In this document: piece by piece, positions 1-17,248 of the stretch
Layout: each line of letters begins with the position of its first letter
Position numbering within the stretch: position 1 is the first letter of the stretch
DNA from: an alpha proteobacterium SCGC AAA536-G10
GTDB taxonomy: Bacteria; Pseudomonadota; Alphaproteobacteria; Puniceispirillales; Marisalimonadaceae
Assembly (NCBI GenBank): GCA_000384615.1
Contig: ARQU01000011.1
Span: forward strand, 1-64,000
Length of the DNA stretch: 64,000 bases
Reading direction: 5' to 3'
Position numbers and translations under genes: made by a program
The notes under the pieces: model-generated
The model's input: only the letters and a program-made list of their open reading frames with translations
Database searches by the model: none
Told to the model about the DNA's origin: nothing

Positions 1-93
1 TATTTCGGAAAGATGATGTTGATTAAAGTTGCTAATTGCTACAGTATTTATTTTTATTTTTAGACCAACTTCACGGGCTTTTTTTAATCCTCT
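1..93 (-). repeat. Inverted repeat copy A (moaA codons 152-182), exact match to 16685-16777
   Basis: Reverse complement of 1-93 (agaggattaaaaaaagcccgtgaag...ctttccgaaata) is identical to 16685-16777; the repeat may continue left of the window. Confidence 0.95.
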
Positions 94-546
94 CTTAACT
101 TTCTCAAGATCTCCCCATCTTGTTATTTCTTTAAATTTTATTGGGTCTAAATGATCTAAAGATACATTAATACGTCTAACACCAGCTTTGTATAATTCTT
201 CAGCTTTTGATTCCAGCTGACTGCCGTTTGTTGTAATTGTTAATTCATCGAGTAAGGTACCAACCTCTTTGCCTAAATTATTAATTACTTGCATAATACC
301 TTTTCTAACTAAAGGTTCACCTCCCGTTAATCTAATTTTCCTTGTTCCAAGTTTCATAAAAGTTCTACAAACTTCTTCAATTTCCTCAAGACTTAAAATA
401 TCTTTTTTTGGAAGAAATTGCATATCTTCAGCCATGCAGTATGTACATCTGAAGTCACACCTATCAGTAACTGACACTCGCAAATAATTTACATCTCTAC
501 CAAAAGGATCAATTAACTTATTTTGATTTTCAATTTTTTTGTTCAT
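1..546 (-). CDS. moaA: GTP 3',8-cyclase MoaA, N-terminal part (runs off left edge of window)
   Basis: Reverse-strand translation from ATG at 546: MNKKIENQNKLIDPFGRDVNYLRVSVTDRCDFRCTYCMAEDMQFLPKKDILSLEE... with radical SAM CxxxCxxC; 182 codons open to position 1. Confidence 0.93.
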   Translation of the reverse strand, partial: MNKKIENQNKLIDPFGRDVNYLRVSVTDRCDFRCTYCMAEDMQFLPKKDILSLEEIEEVCRTFMKLGTRKIRLTGGEPLVRKGIMQVINNLGKEVGTLLDELTITTNGSQLESKAEELYKAGVRRINVSLDHLDPIKFKEITRWGDLEKVKRGLKKAREVGLKIKINTVAISNFNQHHLSEI

Positions 547-672
547 AAAGCAAAATTCAGTTTTAAAATTACAAGAGAAATAATATAACACATTATTTTG
601 GAAATTTAGTAACAATTTTTTCTTAAGAACATATAATGTAAATTTATATATAATCAATTTGTGGAATTTATT

Positions 673-1332
673 ATGAGTGATCTTGGTAAAATATATAGAC
701 ATAAACCTGCAGCAGGAGGCCTTTCTAGCCATTTAGTTGTTTTTCTTCATGGATATGGGGCTGATGGAAAAGATTTAATTGATTTAGCAAATCCATTTTC
801 TATGGCTTTACCAAACGCTACTTTTATTTCGCCTGATGCACCTGATCCTTGTGCTATGTCTCCTCAAGGAAGACAATGGTTTCCGATTGAAGAAATTCCT
901 AATGGTGCAATAAGAGCTTCAGAAAGTTTAATTAAATTAATCAATAAAGAAGCTGAAGATCTTAATCTCACTTTTAAAGATGTAGTTTTAATAGGGTTTT
1001 CACAAGGAGCAATGATGAGTATGCAATGCTTATTATTAAATAAGTTCCAACTTGGAGCTATTATAGGATACTCAGGTGCTTTAAGAGAAGAAAATATTGA
1101 AGCTGCAAGCTTTCAGTTAATCAATGGCAAACATAAATTTTCTGATACCCCAATATTGTTGGTTCATGGAGAACAAGATGTGGTCGTACCTTTCCATTCA
1201 TTACAAAAATCAAAATCACTTTTAGACAAAATTGGTTTTAATGTTGAAACACTCTCAAGACCTAAACTTGGCCATGGAATAGACCCTGAAGGTATAAGTA
1301 GAGGAATGGAGATATTAAAAAAAATAAATTAA
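673..1332 (+). CDS. alpha/beta hydrolase, phospholipase/carboxylesterase family
   Basis: HGYGADGKDLIDLA, GFSQGAMMSM nucleophile elbow, GEQDVVVPFH and GHGID motifs; GTG start at 661 also possible. Confidence 0.88.
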   Translation: MSDLGKIYRHKPAAGGLSSHLVVFLHGYGADGKDLIDLANPFSMALPNATFISPDAPDPCAMSPQGRQWFPIEEIPNGAIRASESLIKLINKEAEDLNLTFKDVVLIGFSQGAMMSMQCLLLNKFQLGAIIGYSGALREENIEAASFQLINGKHKFSDTPILLVHGEQDVVVPFHSLQKSKSLLDKIGFNVETLSRPKLGHGIDPEGISRGMEILKKIN

Positions 1333-1412
1333 TTAAAATTCTAATTTTTTTATTTAATAAATTTTTAATATTGATAGTCTAATAATTATCCAAATAATTT
1401 AATTAGAGTTCA

Positions 1413-1976
1413 ATGACTGCCTATTCCTTTTCACCTACATTAGTTCTCAACGCCGATTACCAACCGTTGAGTTATTTCCCATTATCTCTTTGGTCATGGC
1501 AAGATACAATAAAAGCCGTATTTCTTGACAGAGTAAATATTGTCTCTGAATATGACGAAGTTGTAAGATCCCCTGGATTTTCAATGAAAGTACCCAGTGT
1601 AATTTCTTTGAAAGAATATGTTAAAAATAAGAAATCTCCTGTTTTTACAAGATTTAATGTTTTCTTAAGAGATAGATTTTCCTGTCAATATTGTGGAGCA
1701 GTTAAACAATCACACGATTTAACTTTTGATCATGTAATACCAAGGTCTCTAGGTGGAAGAACTAATTGGAATAATGTTGTAGCTGCTTGTCGCCCCTGTA
1801 ATTTTAAAAAAGGTAGCAAGCGATCCAAGGAAATTAACATGTTTCCTATTATTAAGCCAGAAGCTCCATCAACAAATTTACTAAAAAAGAATGGTAGGTA
1901 TTTCCCACCAAACTATTTACACGAATCTTGGCGTGATTTTTTATATTGGGATACGGAATTGGAAAGTCATAATTGA
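1413..1976 (+). CDS. HNH endonuclease
   Basis: CQYCG...LTFDHVIPRSLGGRTNWNNVVAACRPCNFKKG HNH motif. Confidence 0.9.
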   Translation: MTAYSFSPTLVLNADYQPLSYFPLSLWSWQDTIKAVFLDRVNIVSEYDEVVRSPGFSMKVPSVISLKEYVKNKKSPVFTRFNVFLRDRFSCQYCGAVKQSHDLTFDHVIPRSLGGRTNWNNVVAACRPCNFKKGSKRSKEINMFPIIKPEAPSTNLLKKNGRYFPPNYLHESWRDFLYWDTELESHN

Positions 1977-1990
1977 ATAAATTATAATCT

Positions 1991-2515
1991 TTAAATTTTC
2001 TCTGAAATTTTTATAGCAGTTCTACAACCTAGCTGAACAATAGCTTTCATTACATCAAATCCAGGTGCATTTTCACCATCATGCTCAACTCCAGTTTCAA
2101 GATGGTCAAGTTCATCATCCCTGAACTTCATTAATGTTGATTTAAGTTTTTTATGTTTTTCGTCTAAACTGTCTGCCTGCTTTGCATAATGTTCTCCAAT
2201 GACTTCTTCAACGGCTATCGTACAAGCCATAGCAGCTTTTTCTCCCATTATAGCACTGGCAACACCAAGTCCATAACCCATAACATTCCAAAAAGGAAGA
2301 AGAGCAGTCGGTCTAGTATCATTTTCCACAAGAAGATCATTAAATGTATCTAGATGTTCTTGTTCCTGATCCTTCATATGTTGAATAGTGGGGCCAACAG
2401 GGGTATTTTTTAAAATAGCCAACTGTCCGTCATATATCTTAGCTGCCGCCGTTTCTCCAGCATGATCAACTCTCAAAATAGAATCAATCTGATGTTTACT
2501 AATATTTTTTTTCAT
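1991..2515 (-). CDS. coq7: demethoxyubiquinone hydroxylase family protein (COQ7)
   Basis: LRVDHAGETAAAKIYDGQLA; EEVIGEHY; DDELDHLETGVEHD diiron carboxylate motifs. Confidence 0.93.
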   Translation of the reverse strand: MKKNISKHQIDSILRVDHAGETAAAKIYDGQLAILKNTPVGPTIQHMKDQEQEHLDTFNDLLVENDTRPTALLPFWNVMGYGLGVASAIMGEKAAMACTIAVEEVIGEHYAKQADSLDEKHKKLKSTLMKFRDDELDHLETGVEHDGENAPGFDVMKAIVQLGCRTAIKISEKI

Positions 2516-2994
2516 ACTTTTATAAACCTTTTATTCGTTAAAAAAACATTTACTATCATAAACATAATAAATGACATAAGTGCATTCCAACCAGCTAATG
2601 ACAACCCAAATATACTGAACATTACTTCATCACATTTAATAGGAGACTTGTTTAGTAAATATTTAAGTGTATCTTTTGAAAAATCAATACTTGAAGAACA
2701 TCCATCTGGTCCAGTCCAGAAATTCATCTCGATACCAAAATGATATAATCCGGCAATTGAACTTGCAATCCAAGTTAGAGATAGACCTATTAAAACTAAT
2801 TCACCTGCTATAAAATTTTTTTCTAAAGTTAAAATTGCAATTAAACTGTAAGAAATGATTAGGGCGTGAAACCACCTTTGCGTTATGCATAAGTCGCATG
2901 GAATTGCGTCATGAAAATATTCCAAATAAAAAGCGGATAAAAGCATCAAAGAAGATATTAAAAAAGATATTTTAAAAATATTGTTCATTAACAT
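2512..2994 (-). CDS. dsbB: disulfide bond formation protein B
   Basis: Four-TM protein with CDLCITQRW and later C(S)SS/C motifs typical of DsbB; overlaps coq7 by 4 nt. Confidence 0.85.
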   Translation of the reverse strand: MLMNNIFKISFLISSLMLLSAFYLEYFHDAIPCDLCITQRWFHALIISYSLIAILTLEKNFIAGELVLIGLSLTWIASSIAGLYHFGIEMNFWTGPDGCSSSIDFSKDTLKYLLNKSPIKCDEVMFSIFGLSLAGWNALMSFIMFMIVNVFLTNKRFIKV

Positions 2995-3594
2995 TTACAT
3001 AACATAAATTGTAAAAATTATAAATGCCACCCCTAAAATGCTAGATGAAATCAGAAGGTTTTTTTGTAAGAATAATAATGCTGGTTTACCAAAAAATTTA
3101 ACCAAATAAGCAACTATGAAAAAACGAGTGCCTCTTCCTAAAATGGACATTAAAATAAATGCAATTATATTAATTTCTGCAATTCCACTTGTAATTGTTA
3201 TAATTTTATATGGGAGTGGTGTAAAAGCTCCCAAGAAAATGATTAGCATTCCGTTTTCTTGGTATGCAAATTTGACAGCATTAAATTTTTCTTCGGTAAA
3301 CCAAGGAAAATATAAAAATAAATTTTCAATAGACGGCCCAATCAAATAGCCTAATAACCATCCAATAACACCACCTATTACTGATCCAATAGTACAAATA
3401 ATTGCAAATCTAAAAGTTTTTTTAGGAGCAGCTAAAGTCAATCCCGCCAAAAATGGATCAACTGGAAGAGGGAAAATGATTGATTCAATCATTGAAATAA
3501 AGCCTAAAACATTGTCAGCCAATGGCTTAACAGCATTCGTTTTAGCTTTTTCAATTAAGTTATTTATTATAATTTTATAGTTGTTAAAAATCAT
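2995..3594 (-). CDS. YqaA/DedA-family (SNARE-associated) membrane protein
   Basis: FPLPVDPFLAGLTLAAPKK, GSVIGGVIGWLLGYLIG, GAFTPLPYKIITITSG motifs. Confidence 0.82.
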   Translation of the reverse strand: MIFNNYKIIINNLIEKAKTNAVKPLADNVLGFISMIESIIFPLPVDPFLAGLTLAAPKKTFRFAIICTIGSVIGGVIGWLLGYLIGPSIENLFLYFPWFTEEKFNAVKFAYQENGMLIIFLGAFTPLPYKIITITSGIAEINIIAFILMSILGRGTRFFIVAYLVKFFGKPALLFLQKNLLISSSILGVAFIIFTIYVM

Positions 3595-3680
3595 AGTTAA
3601 TACATCTGATTTATATCTTTTAATTTTCTAACATTGATATATATAATACTTACTCAAGTATACTTATAATTAAAAATATT

Positions 3681-3765
3681 GGGGATATGGTGAAATAGGT
3701 AAACACGCTGGTCTCAAAAACCAGTGCCGCAAGGCTTCCCGGTTCGATTCCGGGTATCCCTACCA
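3681..3765 (+). tRNA. tRNA-Leu (anticodon CAA), CCA encoded
   Basis: ggggatatggtgaaataggtaaacacgctggtctcaaaaaccagtgccgcaaggcttcccggttcgattccgggtatccctacca folds as a class II tRNA; anticodon loop ctcaaaa. Confidence 0.95.
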
Positions 3766-3880
3766 AAATTAAATTCTAATTAATTAATATGTGAAATTAT
3801 TTATCTTTAAGTTTTTAAGAATTTATAATATATAATTAGTTTAGAATCATTTTAATTTAGATTTATTGGGAGGGATCTAT

Positions 3881-4735
3881 ATGATACCTAGTGCATTCAC
3901 TTTTTATAAACCAGATAATATAGAAAAAGCTGTATCTCTTATGTCAGACTTTGGCGATGAGGCAAGGGTAATTGCTGGAGGTCATAGTTTGATACCAGTA
4001 ATGAAACAAAGACTTACAGATATTAAACATTTAATAGATTTGTCTGGGATTAATGAAATTAAAGGTATTGAAATTACAGGTAACCAAATATCAATTGGTG
4101 CAATGACTACTCAAGTTGAATTGATAAATAATGAAGAATTATTTAAAAAAGCCCCTATTATAAGAGAAGCCTCATTGCAAATTGCTGACCCACAAGTCAG
4201 GAACCTTGGTACAATCGGGGGAAATGTGGCTAATGGTGATCCAGCGAATGATATGCCTGGCTTAATGCAACTACTTGACGCTACTTATAAATTAAGTGGC
4301 TCTAATGGTGTTCGTGATGTTAAAGCAAGAGAATTTTATGAAGGAGCTTATTTTACTGTTAGGGAAGATGATGAAATTCTTATTTCAATTTCCTTTGACG
4401 CTCCATCAGGTGGTTATGCCTATGAAAAACAAAAAAGAAAAATTGGTGATTATGCAACTGCAGCAGCTGGTGTAATATTAAAAGTTGAAAATAATATGTG
4501 TTCAAGTGCTTCTATAGCATTAACTAATTTATCAGACACTCCAGTATATTGTGATAAAGCTGTAGATATAATCCTTGGAAAAGAAATTGATAACAACATA
4601 TTAAATCAAGTCACAGAAGCTTGTGTAGAGCAAAGTGATCCTGTAGCTGATCAAAGAGGACCAGTTGAATTTAAGAAATACGTCGCTGGTATTGTAATTA
4701 AAAAGGCTCTTACAAGAGCTATTGAACGAACCTAG
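3881..4735 (+). CDS. coxM: aerobic carbon monoxide dehydrogenase, FAD-binding medium subunit
   Basis: [14 protein letters not shown] and [16 protein letters not shown] flavin motifs; directly upstream of coxS and coxL. Confidence 0.92.
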
Positions 4736-4749
4736 TTAAGGGGAAAGAT

Positions 4750-5253
4750 ATGGAAAAAATTAATGTCACTATGACAGTTAATGGTAAAGAAGAGACATTG
4801 TCAGTTGAGCCAAGAACACTTTTAGTCCACGCTCTTAGAGAGCACTTAGATTATACTGGTGCACATATAGGATGTTCTTCATCCCATTGTGGTGCTTGCA
4901 CCATAGATATGAACGGAAAATCAGTAAAGTCTTGCACAGTATTTGCCCCTCAAGCAGAAGGCGCTGAAATTTTGACTGTTGAAGGTATAGGTTCTCCCGA
5001 CAAACTTCATGCTATACAAGAAATGTTTAAAGAGCATCATGGTTTACAATGTGGATATTGCACACCTGGAATGATTATGAGGTCATATAGGTTTTTACAA
5101 GAGAACCCTAATCCTACAGAAGAAGAGGTTAGATTTGGTATTTCAGGAAACTTATGCAGATGTACTGGATACCAAAATATTGTTAAATCAATAATGGCAG
5201 CCGCAGATAAAATAAGAGATGAAGTTAACGTTGAGAAAAAGGAAATAGCATAA
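4750..5253 (+). CDS. coxS: aerobic carbon monoxide dehydrogenase, [2Fe-2S] small subunit
   Basis: [16 protein letters not shown] and QCGYCTPGM...[12 protein letters not shown] two [2Fe-2S] motifs. Confidence 0.94.
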
Positions 5254-7676
5254 TGGATGACGTAAAAACCCCATCACGAGAAGAAAGAAAAAGCGCATTA
5301 AGCGGTCTTGGTACTTCTAGAAAAAGAGTTGAAGATGCTAGATTTACGCAAGGTAAAGGTAATTATGTAGACGATATAAAGCTAAAAGGAATGCTTTTTG
5401 GTGACTTTGTAAGATCACCAGTTGCACATGCACGAGTAAAGAACATTGATACAAGCGCAGCTCTAGCCTTACCTGGTGTTCATGCAGTACTTACTGCAGC
5501 TGATTTAGAACCATTAGGTCTACATTGGATGCCAACGCTTGCAGGTGACAAACAAATGGTTCTTGCAGATGGCAAAGTTCTATTCCAAGGGCAAGAAGTT
5601 GCGTTTGTTGTTGGAGACGACAGATATGCTGTAGCTGACGGTGTTTCTTTGGTCGAAGTTGAATATGAGGAGTTGGCAGTAGTAACAGATCCTTTTAAAG
5701 CTGAATTAAAAGATGCACCTATCTTAAGAGAAGACATTGCAGATCAAAAAGAAGGTGCTCATGGAGCTAGAAGACATCCAAATCACATTTTTACATGGGA
5801 AGCAGGTGAAAAAGAAGAAACTAATAAAGTATTAGAAGAAGCTGAAGTTGTTGCTGATGAAATGGTTTATTATCATAGAACACATCCATGTCCTCTTGAG
5901 ACTTGCGGATGTGTTGCTTCTATGGACAAAGTTAATGGTAAACTTACAGTTTGGGGTACGTTTCAAGCCCCACATGCTGTAAGAACGGTAGCGTCATTAA
6001 TTTCAAGTATTCCAGAGCATAACATTAGAATTATTTCTCCAGATATTGGTGGAGGATTTGGAAATAAAGTTGGTGTTTATCCAGGCTATGTTTGTTCAAT
6101 TGTTGCATCAATTGTAACTGGTGTTCCAATAAAATGGGTTGAAGACAGAATGGATAACTTAATGGCCACTGCTTTTGCAAGAGATTATTGGATGCATGGT
6201 AAGATATCAGCAACAAAAGAAGGAAAAATTACTGGTTTGTGGTGTCATACTACAGCTGATCACGGAGCATTTGATGCATGTGCTGATCCCACAAAGTTTC
6301 CAGCTGGATTTATGAACATTTGTACTGGTTCATATGATATTCCAGTAGCTTATTTAGCTGTTGATGGTGTTTATACAAACAAGGCGCCTGGTGGCGTAGC
6401 ATACAGGTGCTCTTTTAGAGTGACTGAAGCTTCTTATTTTATAGAAAGAATGATTGAAGTGCTTGCACAGAAACTTGGAATGGATTCTGCTGAACTCAGA
6501 TCTAAGAATTTTATAAAAAAAGAGCAATTTCCTTATACATCAGCTCTTGGTTGGGAATATGATTCAGGCGATTATCATCAAGCATGGGAAAAAGCTATGA
6601 AATCTGTAAACTATAAACAATTAAGAGAAGATCAAGCAAAACAATTACAATTATTTAAAGATGGTAAATCAAGAAAGTTGATGGGTATAGGTCTTAGTCA
6701 CTTTACTGAGATAGTAGGGGCTGGTCCCGTTAAAAATTGTGATATCCTTGGTTTAGGAATGTTTGATGCTTGTGAAATAAGAATTCATCCAACAGGTTCA
6801 GCAATTGCAAGATTAGGAACCATATCACAAGGTCAAGGTCATGCCACTACATTTGCTCAAATATTAGCATCTGAAATTGGTATTCCAGCCTCTGACATTA
6901 CATTAGAAGAAGGTGATACAGATACCGCTCCATATGGACTAGGGACTTATGGATCTCGTTCCACACCAGTTGCTGGAGCAGCAACTGCCATGGCTGGTAG
7001 AAAAATAAGAGCAAAGGCACAAATGATTGCAGCTTATTTGCTAGAAGTTCACGACGACGATTTAGAATGGGATGTTGATAGATTTTCAGTCAAAGGTGCA
7101 CCTGAAAAATTCAAAACTATGAAAGAGATTGCATTCGCTTCTTATAATCAGGCCATACCTGGTGTAGAACCCGGTTTAGAAGCCGTTAGTTATTATGATC
7201 CACCGAATATGACTTATCCAAACGGAGCCTACGTAGTAGTCATGGAAATTGATGTAGACACCGGGGTTAGTGACATTAAACAGGTTTACGCTCTTGACGA
7301 TTGTGGTACTCGAATAAACCCAATGATTATCGAAGGTCAGGTTCACGGTGGATTAACAGAAGCTCTAGCTATATCTATGGGACAGGAAATTGCTTATGAT
7401 GAGCAAGGTAATGTCATGACAGGTACTTTGATGGACTTTTTTATCCCAACTGCTTGGGAAACACCAAATTACGAGACTGATTATACAGAAACACCAAGTC
7501 CGCATCATCCTATAGGTGCAAAAGGTGTAGGTGAAAGTCCTAATGTAGGTGGAGTGTCTGCTTTTTCAAATGCAGTTCATGACGCTTTTAAACCATTTGG
7601 ATTAACACAGGCACATATGCCTCATGATCATTGGAGAGTTTGGAAGATTGCTAAAGATCTTGGACTTCATAGTTAG
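5253..7676 (+). CDS. coxL: aerobic carbon monoxide dehydrogenase, molybdenum large subunit, form I
   Basis: 807 aa xanthine oxidase-family; active-site AYRCSFR (6399-6419) matches the form I AYxCSFR signature; GGGFGNK motif. Confidence 0.95.
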   Translation: MDDVKTPSREERKSALSGLGTSRKRVEDARFTQGKGNYVDDIKLKGMLFGDFVRSPVAHARVKNIDTSAALALPGVHAVLTAADLEPLGLHWMPTLAGDKQMVLADGKVLFQGQEVAFVVGDDRYAVADGVSLVEVEYEELAVVTDPFKAELKDAPILREDIADQKEGAHGARRHPNHIFTWEAGEKEETNKVLEEAEVVADEMVYYHRTHPCPLETCGCVASMDKVNGKLTVWGTFQAPHAVRTVASLISSIPEHNIRIISPDIGGGFGNKVGVYPGYVCSIVASIVTGVPIKWVEDRMDNLMATAFARDYWMHGKISATKEGKITGLWCHTTADHGAFDACADPTKFPAGFMNICTGSYDIPVAYLAVDGVYTNKAPGGVAYRCSFRVTEASYFIERMIEVLAQKLGMDSAELRSKNFIKKEQFPYTSALGWEYDSGDYHQAWEKAMKSVNYKQLREDQAKQLQLFKDGKSRKLMGIGLSHFTEIVGAGPVKNCDILGLGMFDACEIRIHPTGSAIARLGTISQGQGHATTFAQILASEIGIPASDITLEEGDTDTAPYGLGTYGSRSTPVAGAATAMAGRKIRAKAQMIAAYLLEVHDDDLEWDVDRFSVKGAPEKFKTMKEIAFASYNQAIPGVEPGLEAVSYYDPPNMTYPNGAYVVVMEIDVDTGVSDIKQVYALDDCGTRINPMIIEGQVHGGLTEALAISMGQEIAYDEQGNVMTGTLMDFFIPTAWETPNYETDYTETPSPHHPIGAKGVGESPNVGGVSAFSNAVHDAFKPFGLTQAHMPHDHWRVWKIAKDLGLHS

Positions 7677-7694
7677 TCTAGCTGATAAACAAAA

Positions 7695-8564
7695 ATGCAA
7701 TGGCAAAATATTAAGAAGTATCTATATGATTTAGATTATATAGCATCAGATGAATTAGCTATGAGTATTCACATAGCTTCAAGTCTTAGTAGGCCTCTAC
7801 TATTGGAAGGTGAGGCAGGTATTGGAAAAACTGCCCTCGCCATTGCTTTATCTAAATTGCATGAAACTAGTCTTATAAGATTACAATGTTATGAAGGTCT
7901 TGATTCTACCTCAACAATTTATGAATGGAACTATCAAAAACAATTACTTGCAATTCGTTCTAACGAAACCAAAAGTAACAATGAAATAGATATTGATAAA
8001 CACATATTTTCTAGAGATTTTCTCTTGGAAAGACCTTTATTAAAGGCAATAACTCAAAAAAAATCACCTGTTCTTCTCATTGACGAAATCGACAGAGCTG
8101 ACGAAGAGTTTGAAGCGTATCTTTTAGAAATTTTGTCGGAGTTTCAGGTGTCTATTCCTGAATTTGGTACAATAAAAGCTGTTTCAAAGCCTATTGTAAT
8201 TATAACGTCTAACAGTACTAGAGATTTGTCTGATGCGTTAAGAAGAAGGTGCATTTATAATTATGTATACTACCCAAAAAAAGAACTTGAACTTCAAATA
8301 TTACAAAAAAAAATGCCTAACATTGAGTTAGAATTATCAAGACAAATAGTTAGCTTTGTTCAAAATTTAAGAATGGAAGATTTAGAAAAAAAACCTGGTA
8401 TAGCAGAAACTTTAGACTGGGCTGCCGCTATATCAGGATTGGGATTAAAGGATTTATCTGAAAATCATGAAATCTTACATTCAACTTTGGTCTGTTTGTT
8501 AAAAACAGAAGCTGATAAGGCAATTATTTCTTTAGAAACAAGTCAGAAATTAGCTAAAGTATAA
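7695..8564 (+). CDS. coxD: CoxD-like AAA+ MoxR-family ATPase
   Basis: Walker A GEAGIGKTALA, Walker B PVLLIDEIDRADEEFEAYLLE; position after coxL. Confidence 0.9.
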   Translation: MQWQNIKKYLYDLDYIASDELAMSIHIASSLSRPLLLEGEAGIGKTALAIALSKLHETSLIRLQCYEGLDSTSTIYEWNYQKQLLAIRSNETKSNNEIDIDKHIFSRDFLLERPLLKAITQKKSPVLLIDEIDRADEEFEAYLLEILSEFQVSIPEFGTIKAVSKPIVIITSNSTRDLSDALRRRCIYNYVYYPKKELELQILQKKMPNIELELSRQIVSFVQNLRMEDLEKKPGIAETLDWAAAISGLGLKDLSENHEILHSTLVCLLKTEADKAIISLETSQKLAKV

Positions 8565-8565
8565 T

Positions 8566-9759
8566 ATGCTTAAACCTACAAAATTTCTGTTAAGGTCGTC
8601 TAAAACTTCTAGGTTGTTAGACTTTAGTCATCACATGTTTGCTAACGGTTTTAATACTTCCTTTGATCAGGTAACTCAGTCTCTTAATGGTTTGCAAAAT
8701 ATTGATTTGTCTAAAATACAAGAATGGAAAAATGCTCTTAAATCAATTTATTGTTACAACTTTGATACATATGAAAAATTTGATGAATTATTCGATTCCT
8801 TCTGGACAAATGAAGGAAGAAAAAAAACAAATATCCAAAGACAAAATAATAATAAAAATAACGATACAATTAATACTAGAAGTATTTTTGCCCCTCCGGA
8901 GCAAGGCACACTTGACAATGAATCAACAAATAAATCCATGACTGATAACGAAAACGAAATGGAAGCCTCTAGCAATGCAGTGTCTAAAATAACTGCCAGT
9001 TTCATAGAAAACAAAAAGAAAACAGATTTAAAAGAACTAATTGATTCTGATTTACAAAAAAGAATACACTCAGCTGTTTTGAAAATAGCTAAGTCAATTA
9101 AACATAAAAGATCAAGACGATTAATAGCAGACAGAAAAGGTATTAAATTAGACTTAAGGAAAATTGTTAGTAAATCATTACCCTATGAAGGTTATCCTAT
9201 TAAATTGTATAAAAAAAGTAAGCCTAAAAAGCCGATGAGAATAGTTAGCATATTAGATATATCGGGATCTATGAAGGTATATAGTCAAATTTATTTAACT
9301 TTTGTTAAAGGTTTGGTAGGAGTTAATCAATCTGCAGATGTATATTTGTTTCACACAAGATTGATGAGAGTTACAGAGTATCTTAAAGAAAATGACACTT
9401 TAAAAGCGGTCAATAGGATTTCTTTACTTACAGAGGGATTTTCGGGTGGTACTAAAATTGGTAAGTCATTAAAAGAATTTAATAATGTTTATTCAAAAAA
9501 CCAAGTTAATGGTAGAACAGTCGTTATTATTATTTCCGATGGCTACGACACGGGAAGTCCAAAAATTGTTTCGCAAGAACTTGAAAAATTAAAAAAGAGA
9601 AATTGTAAAATAATCTGGCTAAATCCTCTTCTTGGATGGGAGAATTACGAACCAGTTGCTGCTAGCATGAAAGAAGCATCTTCGCATTTAGATTTATTTG
9701 CACCTTGTAATACTATCGAAGATTTAGAAAATTTAGAAAAAGAATTATGTATGATATGA
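8566..9759 (+). CDS. coxE: CoxE-like VWA-domain protein
   Basis: MIDAS DISGSMKVY and ISDGYDTGSP; follows coxD. Confidence 0.9.
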   Translation: MLKPTKFLLRSSKTSRLLDFSHHMFANGFNTSFDQVTQSLNGLQNIDLSKIQEWKNALKSIYCYNFDTYEKFDELFDSFWTNEGRKKTNIQRQNNNKNNDTINTRSIFAPPEQGTLDNESTNKSMTDNENEMEASSNAVSKITASFIENKKKTDLKELIDSDLQKRIHSAVLKIAKSIKHKRSRRLIADRKGIKLDLRKIVSKSLPYEGYPIKLYKKSKPKKPMRIVSILDISGSMKVYSQIYLTFVKGLVGVNQSADVYLFHTRLMRVTEYLKENDTLKAVNRISLLTEGFSGGTKIGKSLKEFNNVYSKNQVNGRTVVIIISDGYDTGSPKIVSQELEKLKKRNCKIIWLNPLLGWENYEPVAASMKEASSHLDLFAPCNTIEDLENLEKELCMI

Positions 9760-10547
9760 CAAATAATGATGAAAAATTAAATTTTGAAAATGTTTTGAAA
9801 ACTCTTGAAAATAAGGGATCTTCTTTTGTAATTGCTACTGTTATTAGAACTATGTCGTCAACTGCTGCAAAACCTGGCATGAAAGCGATAATATCAAACA
9901 AAGGCGAAATATTATCAGGTTGGCTTGGAGGTGGATGTGTTACGAACGCTGTACGTAATACAGCTTTAGAAACATTAAATTTAAAAAAACCCAAATTAGT
10001 TGTGTTAAGTCCAGACGATATTAAAGAAGATTTGGATGAATTAAAAAGCAATCAAACTTTTCATAAAAAAAATTATTGTCCTAGCGAAGGTTCAATGGAT
10101 ATTTTTGTTGAGCCTTTTTATCCTAAATCAGAATTAATAGTTTATGGTAATACACCAATTGCAAATGAATTAGTCAAATTTGGCGAGAAATATAGTTTTA
10201 ATGTAGTTCATGTTAGAAATTTTCAAGACGATAACAATAATAATTTAAATGAATTTTCGGAGAAATTTATTGTTATAGCTACTCAGGGTAACTCAGACCT
10301 AATCGCAATAACAGAATCGTTAAAAATAAAAGCAACTTATATCGGCCTTGTTGCAAGCAAAAAAAAATATCAAGCTTTAAAAAAGAAAATAACAGACGAA
10401 GGTGTTTCGCAAGAAAAATTAAAAGATATAATTTGTCCTGCAGGAATTTTTATAAATGCAATTATGCCCGAGGAAGTAGCCTTATCAATTTTTGCAGAAA
10501 TAATTGAATTAAAAAGATCTGGTAAAATTGGAAGTAAAAAATTTTAA
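9756..10547 (+). CDS. coxF: CoxF-like XdhC/CoxI family protein
   Basis: TMSSTAAKPGMKAIISNKGEILSGWLGGGCV; ATGA overlap with coxE stop; upstream ATG at 9747 also possible. Confidence 0.88.
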   Translation: MTNNDEKLNFENVLKTLENKGSSFVIATVIRTMSSTAAKPGMKAIISNKGEILSGWLGGGCVTNAVRNTALETLNLKKPKLVVLSPDDIKEDLDELKSNQTFHKKNYCPSEGSMDIFVEPFYPKSELIVYGNTPIANELVKFGEKYSFNVVHVRNFQDDNNNNLNEFSEKFIVIATQGNSDLIAITESLKIKATYIGLVASKKKYQALKKKITDEGVSQEKLKDIICPAGIFINAIMPEEVALSIFAEIIELKRSGKIGSKKF

Positions 10548-10577
10548 ATAGTTAATTTAAGTAAATCGGAGAAAATC

Positions 10578-11039
10578 ATGGAACTTAACGATGAAATTAC
10601 AATACCAGCAAAATTGGAATTAGTTTATAAGTCATTAAATGATCTTGAGGTATTAAAATCTTGTATTCCTGGTTGTGAAGAACTTATTGAAGAAGAAGAT
10701 GGCAAATTATCTGCAAAGGTTATTTTAAAAATTGGCCCTATAAAAGCTAAGTTCAAGGGAAAAGTTACTTTAGATTTATCAAATGGTCCTACAAAATATT
10801 CACTTACTGGAGAAGGAGATGGTGGTGTTGCTGGATTTGCTAAAGGTGGAGCTGATGTTGAGTTGACCGAAGATGGTGATCAAACCATATTAAAGTATGT
10901 TGCTAAGAGTGAAGTCAAAGGAAAAATTGCTCAACTTGGGAGCCGTTTAATTTTAAGCACAGCTAAAAAATTATCTAAAACTTTTTTCGAAAATTTTAAA
11001 GTTTATATGGAAGGCGACAAAAAAGAGGTTCTTTCTTAG
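10578..11039 (+). CDS. coxG: CoxG family SRPBCC protein
   Basis: MELNDEITIPAKLELVYKSLNDLEVLKSCIPGCEEL, typical CoxG N-terminus; end of cox cluster. Confidence 0.92.
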   Translation: MELNDEITIPAKLELVYKSLNDLEVLKSCIPGCEELIEEEDGKLSAKVILKIGPIKAKFKGKVTLDLSNGPTKYSLTGEGDGGVAGFAKGGADVELTEDGDQTILKYVAKSEVKGKIAQLGSRLILSTAKKLSKTFFENFKVYMEGDKKEVLS

Positions 11040-11192
11040 TTAATTATCTTTTTTTGAAATATAATTTTAGAGGCTAATTTGATTATATACTTCTTAATAA
11101 TACTAGTATATTTATCAATGGGTTAGGTATTGTGATTAGGGTGAAATAGCGAAATATAATAAAAACTAAAAGCAAAGTTTCAGAGATTTTCA

Positions 11193-11744
11193 ATGAAAAT
11201 TAACAATTCTAATTTGGAAAAAGATTTACCCTTCACATCTAAAAATTTAATTAAAATATTAGATGATTGGAAAATTATTTATAAAAGCTATTCTCATGAA
11301 CCAGTTATGACTGTTAAAGAAGCCAAATTCGTCCAAGAAGAAATTTTTGGTTTAGACGATAGTAACGGGCATATTAAAAACCTTTATTTAAGAGATAAAA
11401 GAAAAAACAATATATTATTAGTTGCTCATCAAGATGCCTCAATAAATTTAAAGTTGTTAGCCAAAATAATTAAAATGGAGCGCTTAAGTTTTGGTTCCCC
11501 CAATAGATTATTTGAAAACTTGGGAGTTTTACCAGGAGCTGTGTCTCCATTTGCAATGATAAATGGTGCAAAAACAGGTGTGTCTTTATTTTTAGACAAT
11601 AATTTGAAGTCATTTAGTAAAATTTACGCACATCCATTAGAAAATGACAAAACTTTAGAAATATCAATTAAACAGTTAGAAAATTTTTTTGAAAAAATAT
11701 CAGTCATCCCGAATTGGATTGACCTTGACTCTTTTGATAATTAA
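11193..11744 (+). CDS. YbaK/prolyl-tRNA deacylase (ProX-like) family protein
   Basis: YSHEPVMTVKEA, GHIKNLYLRDKRKNN, LGVLPGAVSPFAMIN motifs. Confidence 0.88.
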   Translation: MKINNSNLEKDLPFTSKNLIKILDDWKIIYKSYSHEPVMTVKEAKFVQEEIFGLDDSNGHIKNLYLRDKRKNNILLVAHQDASINLKLLAKIIKMERLSFGSPNRLFENLGVLPGAVSPFAMINGAKTGVSLFLDNNLKSFSKIYAHPLENDKTLEISIKQLENFFEKISVIPNWIDLDSFDN

Positions 11745-11800
11745 AAAACATATTATCAAAAATTATTGACATATCCTTTTTCATAAAACAAATTCTTTAA

Positions 11801-12109
11801 ATGACGTCTATACATTTTTCAAAAAAATATATTTATACTCCTATTATTGTTTTCCTTATCTTTATAACATCAATATTTCAATCTGTTGACGCCAAAGATA
11901 CTTCTTTAATGATAATGATAACAAACAAAAATTGTTTATATTGCATTGTGTGGGAAAAACAAATTGGTAAAATATATCCTAAGACTGAAATAGCAAAAAA
12001 ATTTTCATTACATAGAATAGAAGTTAAAAACTTTGTTAATTATACTAAATATGATTTAAAAAAAACAAATTTGGACTTCATAACCTCCCCCAGGTTTAAA
12101 AGTAGATAA
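11801..12109 (+). CDS. thioredoxin-like (SoxS/SoxW-type) secreted protein, apparently C-terminally truncated
   Basis: Signal peptide then MITNKNCLYCIVWEKQIGKIYPKTEIAKKFSLHRIEV; ends before the expected TPTF..GYPG region. Confidence 0.6.
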   Translation: MTSIHFSKKYIYTPIIVFLIFITSIFQSVDAKDTSLMIMITNKNCLYCIVWEKQIGKIYPKTEIAKKFSLHRIEVKNFVNYTKYDLKKTNLDFITSPRFKSR

Positions 12110-12258
12110 AATTTACCATTTAGCCATTGTTAAACTATTTTCATGATTAATTATTTATTTATCAAGGAATAATTTTCCTAGGGAAAATTTTCATTGTTAT
12201 ATGTCTATTTTCAATTTAAATTATAACTTATTATCTTTAAAAAATTGTAAGGTTAGTT

Positions 12259-15051
12259 ATGAGTTTATATATAAATTATATATCTGAAATTGAAAACAGA
12301 AAAAAAGAAGGTTTAAAGCCAAAGCCAATAGAGGATGGCACTTTATTAAAAGAAATAATTTCACAAATAAAAGACGAAAATAATATTCATAGAACCGATT
12401 CACTCAACTTTCTCATTTATAATACTATCCCAGGCACAACTACTGCAGCAGTAGTAAAATCAAAGTTTTTAAAAGAAATTATAACAAAACAAATTGTTGT
12501 AAAAGAAATTGAACCAAAGTTTGCATTTGAACTTTTATCTCATATGAAAGGCGGACCATCGATTGAAGTACTTCTTGATTTAGCTTTGGGTGAAAATAAA
12601 TCTGTAGCTCTAGAGGCAGCAGAAGTTCTTAAAACCCAAGTTTTTCTCTATGAGATTGACACTTCTAGATTAGAGAATGCTTACAGTAAAGGTAATAAAA
12701 TTGCGGAAGATATCATTAAAAGTTATTCAGAAGCAGAATTTTTTACTAAGCTTCCAGAAATTGAGGAAGAGATTAAAGTTGTAACATATGTTGCAGCTGA
12801 AGGAGATATTTCAACCGATTTATTATCACCTGGGAATCAGGCTCATTCAAGATCTGACCGTGAGCTTCATGGTAAGTGTATGATATCAGAAGCAGCACAA
12901 TTAGAGATTAGAAGATTGCAAAAGGAAAATCCTGACAAACGTGTGATGATAGTTTCTGAAAAAGGAACAATGGGTGTTGGTTCGTCAAGGATGTCAGGAG
13001 TTAACAATGTTGCTTTGTGGACAGGCATTCAAGCTAGTCCATATGTTCCATTTGTAAATATTGCTCCAATAGTGGCAGGAACGAATGGTATATCACCAAT
13101 TTTTTTAACAACAGTAGGTGTTACTGGGGGAATAGGAGTTGATCTAAAAAATTGGACTAAAAAGCTTGATACAGATGGAAATCCAATAATTAATAATGAC
13201 GATAATCCAGTACTTGAGCAAAGATATAGTGTTGATACTGGGACAGTATTAACCATCAATACTAAAAAACAAAAACTATATGATGAAACAGGTGACAAAG
13301 AGCTTGTAGATATGTCTTCCTCTTTTTCACCACAAAAACTTGAGTTCATGAAAGCTGGGGGTTCATATGCTATTGTATTTGGAAAAAAACTTCAGAGCTT
13401 TGCCTGTAAAGCTCTAAATATAGAATTAAAGTCTGCATTTGCACCTTCAAAACAAATTTATAATTCTGGTCAAGGTTTTACTGCTGTAGAAAAAATATTT
13501 AATGCAAATGCGGTAGGTGTGGAAGATGGAGTCAAGTTACATGCAGGATCTGATGTACGCGTAAAAGTCAATATTGTTGGTTCTCAGGACACTACAGGTT
13601 TAATGACTTCGCAAGAGTTAGAAGCTATGGCTGCGACTATAATTTCTCCAAATGTTGATGGAGCATATCAATCAGGATGTCATACTGCTTCTGTATGGGA
13701 TTTTAAAGCTCAAGAAAACACGCCCCGACTTATGAAATTTATGCATAAATTTGGTCTTATTACAGCACGTGATCCAAAAGATTCTTATCATTCAATGACC
13801 GATGTTATTCACAAAGTTTTAAATGACATAACTGTTGATGATTGGTCAATTATTATTGGTGGTGACTCCCACACCAGAATGTCAAAAGGTGTTGCATTTG
13901 GTGCTGACTCCGGAACAGTTGCGCTTGCCTTGGCAACTGGTGAAGCAACTATGCCTATACCAGAATCAGTAAAGGTTACTTTTAAAGGTAAAATGAGTGA
14001 TCATATGGATTTTCGTGATGTAGTACATGCAACTCAAGCACAGATGCTTAAACAATTTGGTGATAATGTATTTCAAGGAAAAATTATAGAAGTACATCTT
14101 GGAACTCTTTTAGCTGATCAAGCTTTTACTTTTACAGATTGGACAGCTGAAATGAAGGCCAAAGCATCCATCTGTATTTCAGAGGATAATACACTTATTA
14201 GATCATTAGAAATTGCAAGAGATAGAATACAGGTAATGGTTGATAAGGGTATGGAGAATAAAGACAAAATGCTTCATAGGTTAATAGGTATTGCAGAAAA
14301 AAGAATATCTCAAATTAAATCGGGGGAAAAACCCGCATTAAGACCTGATGCAAATGCAAAATATTCATCTGAAGTTGTTGTAGATCTTAACTTAATTGAT
14401 GAGCCGATGATTGCTGATCCAGATGTTAATAATCATGATGTGTCTAAGAGGTATACTCATGACACTATAAGACCAATTTCATATTATAACGCAGAAAAAA
14501 AGGTTGATCTTGGCTTTGTAGGCTCGTGTATGGTTCATAAAGGAGATGTAAAAATTGTTGCACAAATGTTACGTAATCTTGAAAGATCGTCAGGTAAAGT
14601 GAATTTTAAGGCTCCTCTAGTTGTAGCGGCACCAACCTATAATATTATAGATGAACTTAAAGAAGAAGGTGACTGGAGTATCTTGCAAAAATACTCTGGC
14701 TTTGAGTTTGATGATAAAAATCCAAAAAATTCAGCACGTCTAGAATATGATAATATTCTTTATCTTGAAAGACCTGGGTGTAACCTTTGTATGGGAAACC
14801 AAGAAAAAGCTGCAAAAGGGGATACGGTTTTGGCAACTTCAACAAGATTGTTCCAAGGTAGGGTAGTAGAAGACACTGAAGAAAAAAAAGGTGAATCATT
14901 ACTTGCTTCTACCCCAGTTGTAGTTCTTTCTGCAATATTAGGAAGAACACCAACAATAGAAGAGTATAAAATTGCTGTAGAAGGAATTGACCTAACGAAA
15001 TTTGCTCCACCGCTGGAAAAAAATCAGAATACCTTATCAGCACATTTTTAA
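12259..15051 (+). CDS. acnB: bifunctional aconitate hydratase 2/2-methylisocitrate dehydratase
   Basis: 930 aa, AcnB architecture; GGDSHTRMSKGVAFGADSGT; ERPGCNLCMGNQ cluster-ligand motif. Confidence 0.96.
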   Translation: MSLYINYISEIENRKKEGLKPKPIEDGTLLKEIISQIKDENNIHRTDSLNFLIYNTIPGTTTAAVVKSKFLKEIITKQIVVKEIEPKFAFELLSHMKGGPSIEVLLDLALGENKSVALEAAEVLKTQVFLYEIDTSRLENAYSKGNKIAEDIIKSYSEAEFFTKLPEIEEEIKVVTYVAAEGDISTDLLSPGNQAHSRSDRELHGKCMISEAAQLEIRRLQKENPDKRVMIVSEKGTMGVGSSRMSGVNNVALWTGIQASPYVPFVNIAPIVAGTNGISPIFLTTVGVTGGIGVDLKNWTKKLDTDGNPIINNDDNPVLEQRYSVDTGTVLTINTKKQKLYDETGDKELVDMSSSFSPQKLEFMKAGGSYAIVFGKKLQSFACKALNIELKSAFAPSKQIYNSGQGFTAVEKIFNANAVGVEDGVKLHAGSDVRVKVNIVGSQDTTGLMTSQELEAMAATIISPNVDGAYQSGCHTASVWDFKAQENTPRLMKFMHKFGLITARDPKDSYHSMTDVIHKVLNDITVDDWSIIIGGDSHTRMSKGVAFGADSGTVALALATGEATMPIPESVKVTFKGKMSDHMDFRDVVHATQAQMLKQFGDNVFQGKIIEVHLGTLLADQAFTFTDWTAEMKAKASICISEDNTLIRSLEIARDRIQVMVDKGMENKDKMLHRLIGIAEKRISQIKSGEKPALRPDANAKYSSEVVVDLNLIDEPMIADPDVNNHDVSKRYTHDTIRPISYYNAEKKVDLGFVGSCMVHKGDVKIVAQMLRNLERSSGKVNFKAPLVVAAPTYNIIDELKEEGDWSILQKYSGFEFDDKNPKNSARLEYDNILYLERPGCNLCMGNQEKAAKGDTVLATSTRLFQGRVVEDTEEKKGESLLASTPVVVLSAILGRTPTIEEYKIAVEGIDLTKFAPPLEKNQNTLSAHF

Positions 15052-15115
15052 TTTAATTGAAAAAAATAGAGCTAACTCATAAGTTACATTACAAAATAAC
15101 TTGATTGGTCAGTAG

Positions 15116-17248
15116 GTGAAAATCAAAAATAAAATTTATACCTTATTAATTTTCTTAGCCTTTTTATTTTTTAGTTTTGAAAATGTTTTCGCAAATGTAG
15201 ACAATAAAGATAATATAACTTTTATTCTTAATACAGACGATTTTGAAACCATACCCTCAAAACATTTAGAATTTGTTGAAGGCTTTGATCAAAACACTCC
15301 TTTTGAAAAATTATTTAAATTAGACTGGAAAAAAAAATTACACAATGATCAATCATTCGTTGATGGTTACTGGGTTCGATTTAGTGTTCAAAATAATACG
15401 AATAAGAAAAATATTGGAGTTACTTTCAATTATAATAACGAAAAGAAAGTTTTTAGTCTAAATAATAAGACAGTTATAGAGTATCCATATTGGAATGAAA
15501 AATATGATAGATGGATTGATGATGGAAGAGTTAGAGCAAGTTATAAAGTCATAATGAATCCTAATGAAACCACCCAAGTTTATAGTTTTTTTAGAAAAAA
15601 ACCATTTGATCGTTATATGGGTAGAGATAGTCTTCACCGAATGACTATTAGCTCATGGGAAAATATTAGTACTCATCAATTTGTAAAAATTGCCGCAAAC
15701 TTAGCAACTTTTGCAATAGCTATAACTTTTGCTATTTATTATTTATTCATTTTTTTAGTCTCGAAAGGTAACTATTTGTGGTTGTCACTAAGCCTTTTTC
15801 AAATCTCTTTTCTGTCCATTACAAATTTAGTTATTGGCAGAATTATTGGGATAAATTCCTGGTTTTATGCAAGTGAGTTTTCTTTGGCTTCAATATCACT
15901 ATTATTTTTACTATTACTTCAATTTTTTAGACAATCGCTTAATTTAAAAGTAAATTATCCAGTTTTTAATAAAATTTTTGTTTCAACTATAATTTTTTAT
16001 ATTGTTATGATTTTTTTAAATTTATATACATCTTTATCTTGGCCAAGTATAATGTATTTGGATTTAAATTTGTATCCACCTGACATGAATGGACCAGGCT
16101 TAGTTAAAGTAAAATATTTATTTGCCCCTTTTACATTTTTATTGCTAACTTCTGCTGTTATATCATTCTTACTTTGGAAAAAAGGAAGCTCCTACGCCAA
16201 ATATTTATGTATATCCTTCGCGTTACCTTTTTTATCGGCACCAATTTCGGGTTTGGCATATTTATTTTATGATTTTAATTGGATTACTTGGTTAATCATA
16301 AATTCTGCAGTAGGAATTTTATTCCTTGGTATGTTTATTACTTTTGGATTTGCTGTTGCTCAGCAATTAAATGATATGAAGTTGTTAGCTCTTCAACAAC
16401 AAGTAAAATTAACAGAAGCTTACCAAAGATTTGTACCACAGCAATTACTCAAAAACCTTGGTAAAAATAGTATATTAGATGTCTCATTAGGAGACCAAGT
16501 GAATGTTGAAATGAGTATATTATTTTCTGATATAAGATCTTTTACTTCGATATCAGAAAAAATGACTCCAAAAGAAAATTTTTCATTTTTGAACTCATAT
16601 TTAAATCAAATGAGTCCAATAATTAGAGAAAATAAAGGTTATATAGATAAATTTATGGGTGACGGTGTTATGGCATTGTTTAAAAGAGGATTAAAAAAAG
16701 CCCGTGAAGTTGGTCTAAAAATAAAAATAAATACTGTAGCAATTAGCAACTTTAATCAACATCATCTTTCCGAAATACTTAAATGGTGTGGTAAAGAAAA
16801 TTTTGACATGACTATAATTGAAGTTATGCCAATGGGCGATATCGGTGGAGATACAAGATATGGACAATACTTACCTTTATCACAGGTCAGAACCGAACTA
16901 GAAAAAGAATTCACTCTAAAAGACCTTCCAGAAAGAACAAGCGGCCCAGCAAGATATGTGTCAGTTAAAGAAACAAGTAACAAGCTTGGTTTTATAACAC
17001 CATTAACGCATAATTTTTGTGAAAGTTGTAATAGGGTAAGACTTACTTGCACTGGTGTCTTATATATGTGCTTAGGACAGGATGATAATGCCGATTTAAA
17101 AACTGTTCTAAGAGAAGAAGGATCTACTGCTCTAGAAGAAGCGATAAGAATGGCAATAGGGAGAAAACCAAAAGGGCATGACTTTGAGATTTCACGTCAA
17201 TCTCCAAACATATCTGTCAACCGACACATGTCTCTTACAGGGGGCTGA
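15116..17248 (+). CDS. Chimeric ORF: membrane-anchored class III adenylate/guanylate cyclase N-terminus fused to MoaA C-terminus
   Basis: Residues 1-522: signal peptide, extracellular domain, seven-TM-like region, [18 protein letters not shown]...[11 protein letters not shown]. From residue 523 (nt 16682): [19 protein letters not shown]...[21 protein letters not shown]...HMSLTGG (MoaA). Confidence 0.85.
16685..16777 (+). repeat. Inverted repeat copy B, exact match to reverse complement of 1-93
   Basis: Base-by-base comparison; first mismatch at 16684 (a) vs complement of 94 (g). Confidence 0.95.
16685..17248 (+). other. moaA: moaA 3' part (MoaA residues ~152 to C-terminal GG) embedded in chimeric ORF
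   Basis: C-x2-C-x13-C second 4Fe-4S motif and C-terminal GG; 93-bp exact match to reverse complement of window start. Confidence 0.92.

Follow-up and report, generated by a model that had tools for sequence, protein, structure and literature searches.

An open reading frame that joins a nucleotide cyclase to MoaA is very probably an artefact built from two ordinary genes

Does this genome encode a protein in which a membrane-anchored class III nucleotide cyclase runs directly into the C-terminal part of MoaA, or does the open reading frame (ORF) that suggests such a protein combine pieces of two separate genes? The ORF lies in what we call the window, the whole stretch of 64,000 nucleotides that was analysed, which corresponds to bases 1-64000 of contig C11 (79,403 bp) in an assembly of 2.16 Mb and 148 contigs. 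Based upon the ends of the contigs, the genes that can be rebuilt from them and the arrangement of the same genes in relatives, we consider it very probable that the cyclase-MoaA ORF is an artefact joining parts of two ordinary genes, most likely produced when the DNA was amplified before sequencing.

The open reading frame and its junction

The ORF exists as it was described in the initial annotation, beginning with GTG, and its composition of cyclase followed by MoaA was borne out by Pfam, which places a partial Guanylate_cyc domain at residues 465-525 (profile 8-68 of 183) and Mob_synth_C, the C-terminal domain of MoaA, at residues 564-689. Residues 1-523 constitute a membrane-anchored class III cyclase that ends past the second metal motif, and the remainder is C-terminal MoaA. 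Comparison of the cyclase, moaA and fusion sequences puts the breakpoint at the same place as before. With a slash marking this point, the cyclase gene reads ...TTTAAAAG/TTCAGC, moaA reads ...GTTAAGAG/AGGATT, and the fusion reads ...TTTAAAAG/AGGATT. The join points in moaA and the cyclase gene are ~16.7 kb apart in inverted orientation. The sequence that the two genes have in common there amounts to ~7 bp with one mismatch, as against the ~95-bp overlaps between contigs described below, and 6/7 identity at the join is expected in 0.3% of random inverted pairs. Preservation of the frame across the join is roughly a one-in-three coincidence.

Table 1. Coordinates of the features discussed, in window positions
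Feature	Position	Strand	Basis or remark
710-aa ORF	15116-17248	+	GTG start; frame open across the cyclase-moaA join
5' part of intact cyclase gene	15116-16686	+	Exact 95-bp overlap with contig C3; 3' part is C3:96-684
3' part of intact moaA	16685-17248	+	Exact 93-bp overlap of contig end with 16685-16777
5' part of moaA	1-546	-	Truncated at position 1, where contig C11 ends; Radical_SAM domain
Segment inverted in C11	1-16686	.	Relative to five relatives (gene order) and to the two contig-end overlaps
Presumed false junction	16680-16689	+	Short imperfect common stretch TTAA[A/G]AG; exact match at the join 2 bp

Recovery of both parent genes from contig ends

The left end of contig C11 coincides with window position 1 and falls inside moaA. 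The moaA 5' half had been placed on the opposite strand at 546-1, and the minus-strand ORF found there does bear a Radical_SAM domain (Pfam). The location of this "missing" half was thus correctly given, but its truncation at position 1 comes from the contig end: because position 1 is where C11 stops, moaA is cut there by the assembly and not by biology. The reverse complement of window 1-93 (C11:1-93) is identical to window 16685-16777 over 93 bp. When window 546-1 (minus strand) is joined to 16685-17248, the product is a MoaA of 338 aa in which Radical_SAM and Mob_synth_C are both present, and MoaA frames in the nearest relatives are mostly ~340-350 aa. Measured against MoaA, the GTP 3',8-cyclase of molybdenum cofactor synthesis (PF04055 and PF06463), the rejoined protein has both domains at full length, whereas the 710-aa ORF has PF06463 only.

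The cyclase gene can be rebuilt in the same manner. The first 95 bp of the 171-kb contig C3 (C3:1-95) are identical to window 16592-16686, after which the cyclase frame continues from C3:96. Window 15116-16686 followed by C3:96 onwards forms a single 720-aa frame, in which the cyclase domain covers profile 8-176 of 183 (Pfam PF00211) and which contains the downstream motifs GINTGD and NLASR, both missing from the 710-aa ORF. The N-terminal part of the rejoined protein matches no Pfam family above the cut-off. Orthologues of the cyclase in relatives are 720-724 aa long, and the nearest are 96-97% identical. The rejoined protein is therefore like a class III nucleotide cyclase with an N-terminal membrane region (PF00211) in its coverage of the profile, whereas the 710-aa ORF retains only positions 8-68. 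The earlier statements that the cyclase has lost its remaining catalytic residues, and MoaA its radical SAM part, are accurate for the 710-aa ORF but not for the genome, which has the rest of each gene. Separately, the cyclase orthologue of one relative (G014:C9:2542-4138) contains several stop codons over two overlapping matches, and is either a decaying gene or an assembly fault.

Each overlap lies precisely at the end of a contig, and the sequences part precisely at the junction. The ends of C3 and C11 each lead on to the true partner, and each shares with the false junction approximately one k-mer-like length; overlaps of this length at contig ends are the trace left by a branch in a k-mer graph. 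The same assembly that holds the false junction therefore also holds both original ones, from cyclase to C3 and from moaA 5' to 3'. Because these junctions and the whole genes can be recovered from this one assembly, the 710-aa ORF is very probably no real gene.

A pairwise comparison of 83 contig ends, meant to reveal the assembler's k, was of little help, with seven of the sampled small contigs (C36-C42) masked as N at the ends read. The left end of C10 and the right end of C35 overlap by 80 identical bp, and these two contigs can probably be joined. A 94-bp match within the 4.9-kb contig C32 was rejected as a k-mer overlap, as it is part of a 116-bp inverted repeat (94% identical) that occupies both ends of the contig (C32:1-116 and 4627-4742, L205). 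This repeat may be either natural or another chimera.

Gene order and searches in other genomes

Five relatives (G021, G012, G022, G024 and G025) carry the cyclase gene and moaA on one contig, both whole and in opposite orientations. In all five, the genes from the left end of C3 come first and the cyclase gene next, after which stand the aconitase gene (window 12259-15051), the remaining genes of window 1-12000 in reversed order, and moaA; the gene at window 17252 and the remaining right-hand flank follow. This is the gene order predicted by following both contig-end overlaps. Because the overlaps and the five relatives agree on an order opposite to that of C11, window 1-16686 is inverted in this contig.

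The fusion was also sought elsewhere. When 136 genomes from the order were searched with the junction peptide, this genome alone matched across the join; every other one matches just one of the two halves. A scan of 84,980 genomes of different species left 80 loci, and none of these covers both parts. One listed match to query residues 421-710 (L030), considered as a second fusion, proved to be an ordinary moaA that begins at the end of a contig. The initial annotation had proposed a search for the same fusion in independent genomes, and neither the 136 genomes nor the 80 loci provide one. Its title, if taken to mean a natural chimeric gene, is at odds with the intact rejoining of both parents from the same assembly. 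It had offered a fresh rearrangement as one explanation, but a fixed rearrangement is contradicted by the presence of both unrearranged junctions in this assembly and by the separate intact genes of the relatives, which match the predicted arrangement. Its other explanation, a chimeric assembly, is supported by the contig-end overlaps, the rejoined genes and the order in relatives.

The inverted segment also contains a complete-looking aerobic carbon monoxide dehydrogenase operon (window 3845-11036, plus strand), with genes for the FAD subunit, 2Fe-2S subunit, large subunit (TIGR02416 above its cut-off), MoxR-type ATPase, CoxE-like VWA protein, XdhC/CoxI-type protein and CoxG. G021 and G025 have the first six genes in this region too; in G012, G022 and G024 the stretches read lack them and keep the CoxG homologue alone.

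Origin of the join

How could the two genes have been brought together? During multiple displacement amplification (MDA) of a single SAR116-type cell, a 3' end extending through the cyclase gene could have been displaced at ...TTTAAAAG, annealed via a few matching bases to a moaA strand ~16.7 kb away in inverted orientation, and been extended into moaA. The assembler would then have followed the chimeric molecule through 16686 and broken both true paths, which survive as contig ends that overlap by roughly a k-mer. The real genome has the cyclase gene as window 15116-16686 continuing into C3, and moaA as window 546-1 continuing into 16685-17248. Because TTAA[A/G]AG is far too short to mislead an assembler that works with ~95-bp overlaps, chimeric molecules were probably present in the library, and amplification is their most likely source. 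The closest relatives that have names are SAR116 genomes, and these names are of the single-cell AG- and AH- type; for the AG-321, AG-325 and AG-337 plates, MDA or WGA-X served for amplification and SPAdes in single-cell mode for assembly (PMC6122165). The shortest contigs of the present assembly measure 506 bp, which would also be more in keeping with a single-cell origin than with binning from a metagenome.

A real 16.7-kb inversion in part of the DNA, as a natural variant or in one copy of the chromosome, would likewise break both genes and join the cyclase to moaA, and the short inverted match at the join is one that real inversions can use too. However, a real inversion swaps both old junctions for two new ones, whereas here only one new junction is found and the assembly still has both old ones. 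The reciprocal junction (moaA 5' to cyclase 3') does not occur as an exact string in the stretches read, and a search of the genome itself returned no extra copy of either of its flanks, although the masked small contigs could hide the string or a flank. Moreover, such an inversion would destroy moaA beside a molybdenum-dependent CO dehydrogenase operon, and it is seen in no relative. We regard it as very unlikely.

That the assembler made the join by itself, from no chimeric molecule, is more improbable still: the breakpoint does coincide with a branching point of the assembly, but the genes share ~7 bp with a mismatch as against overlaps of ~95 bp. Least credible, to the point of being negligible, is the idea that a class III cyclase and MoaA are naturally fused into a functional protein. 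The open frame across the join speaks for it, but neither half has all of its essential parts, each gene was recovered whole from the same assembly, and no other genome among the 136 has a match spanning the junction. Thus, an amplification chimera that was carried into the assembly remains our preferred account.

When DNA has been amplified, an in-frame chimera can find its way into protein databases and be taken for a novel fusion of domains. One rapid check, which works without reads, is whether the sequence at a contig end also occurs at an internal position over roughly the length of one k-mer, with the two copies parting precisely at the presumed junction. The cyclase-MoaA ORF matters only as such a caution, and is very probably not a real feature of the organism.

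In single-cell MDA of E. coli, 85% of chimeras were inverted and >70% of joins had 2-21 bp of complementarity; most inverted chimeras linked points <10 kb apart, and among inverted joins of >10 kb only ~35% showed complementarity (Lasken and Stockwell 2007, PMC1855051). The join described here differs from these in its distance of ~16.7 kb, compared with mostly <10 kb, and in that its amplification is deduced; neither changes the conclusion that the organism has no such gene. It resembles them in linking two segments of one genome through an inverted join at a few matching bases.
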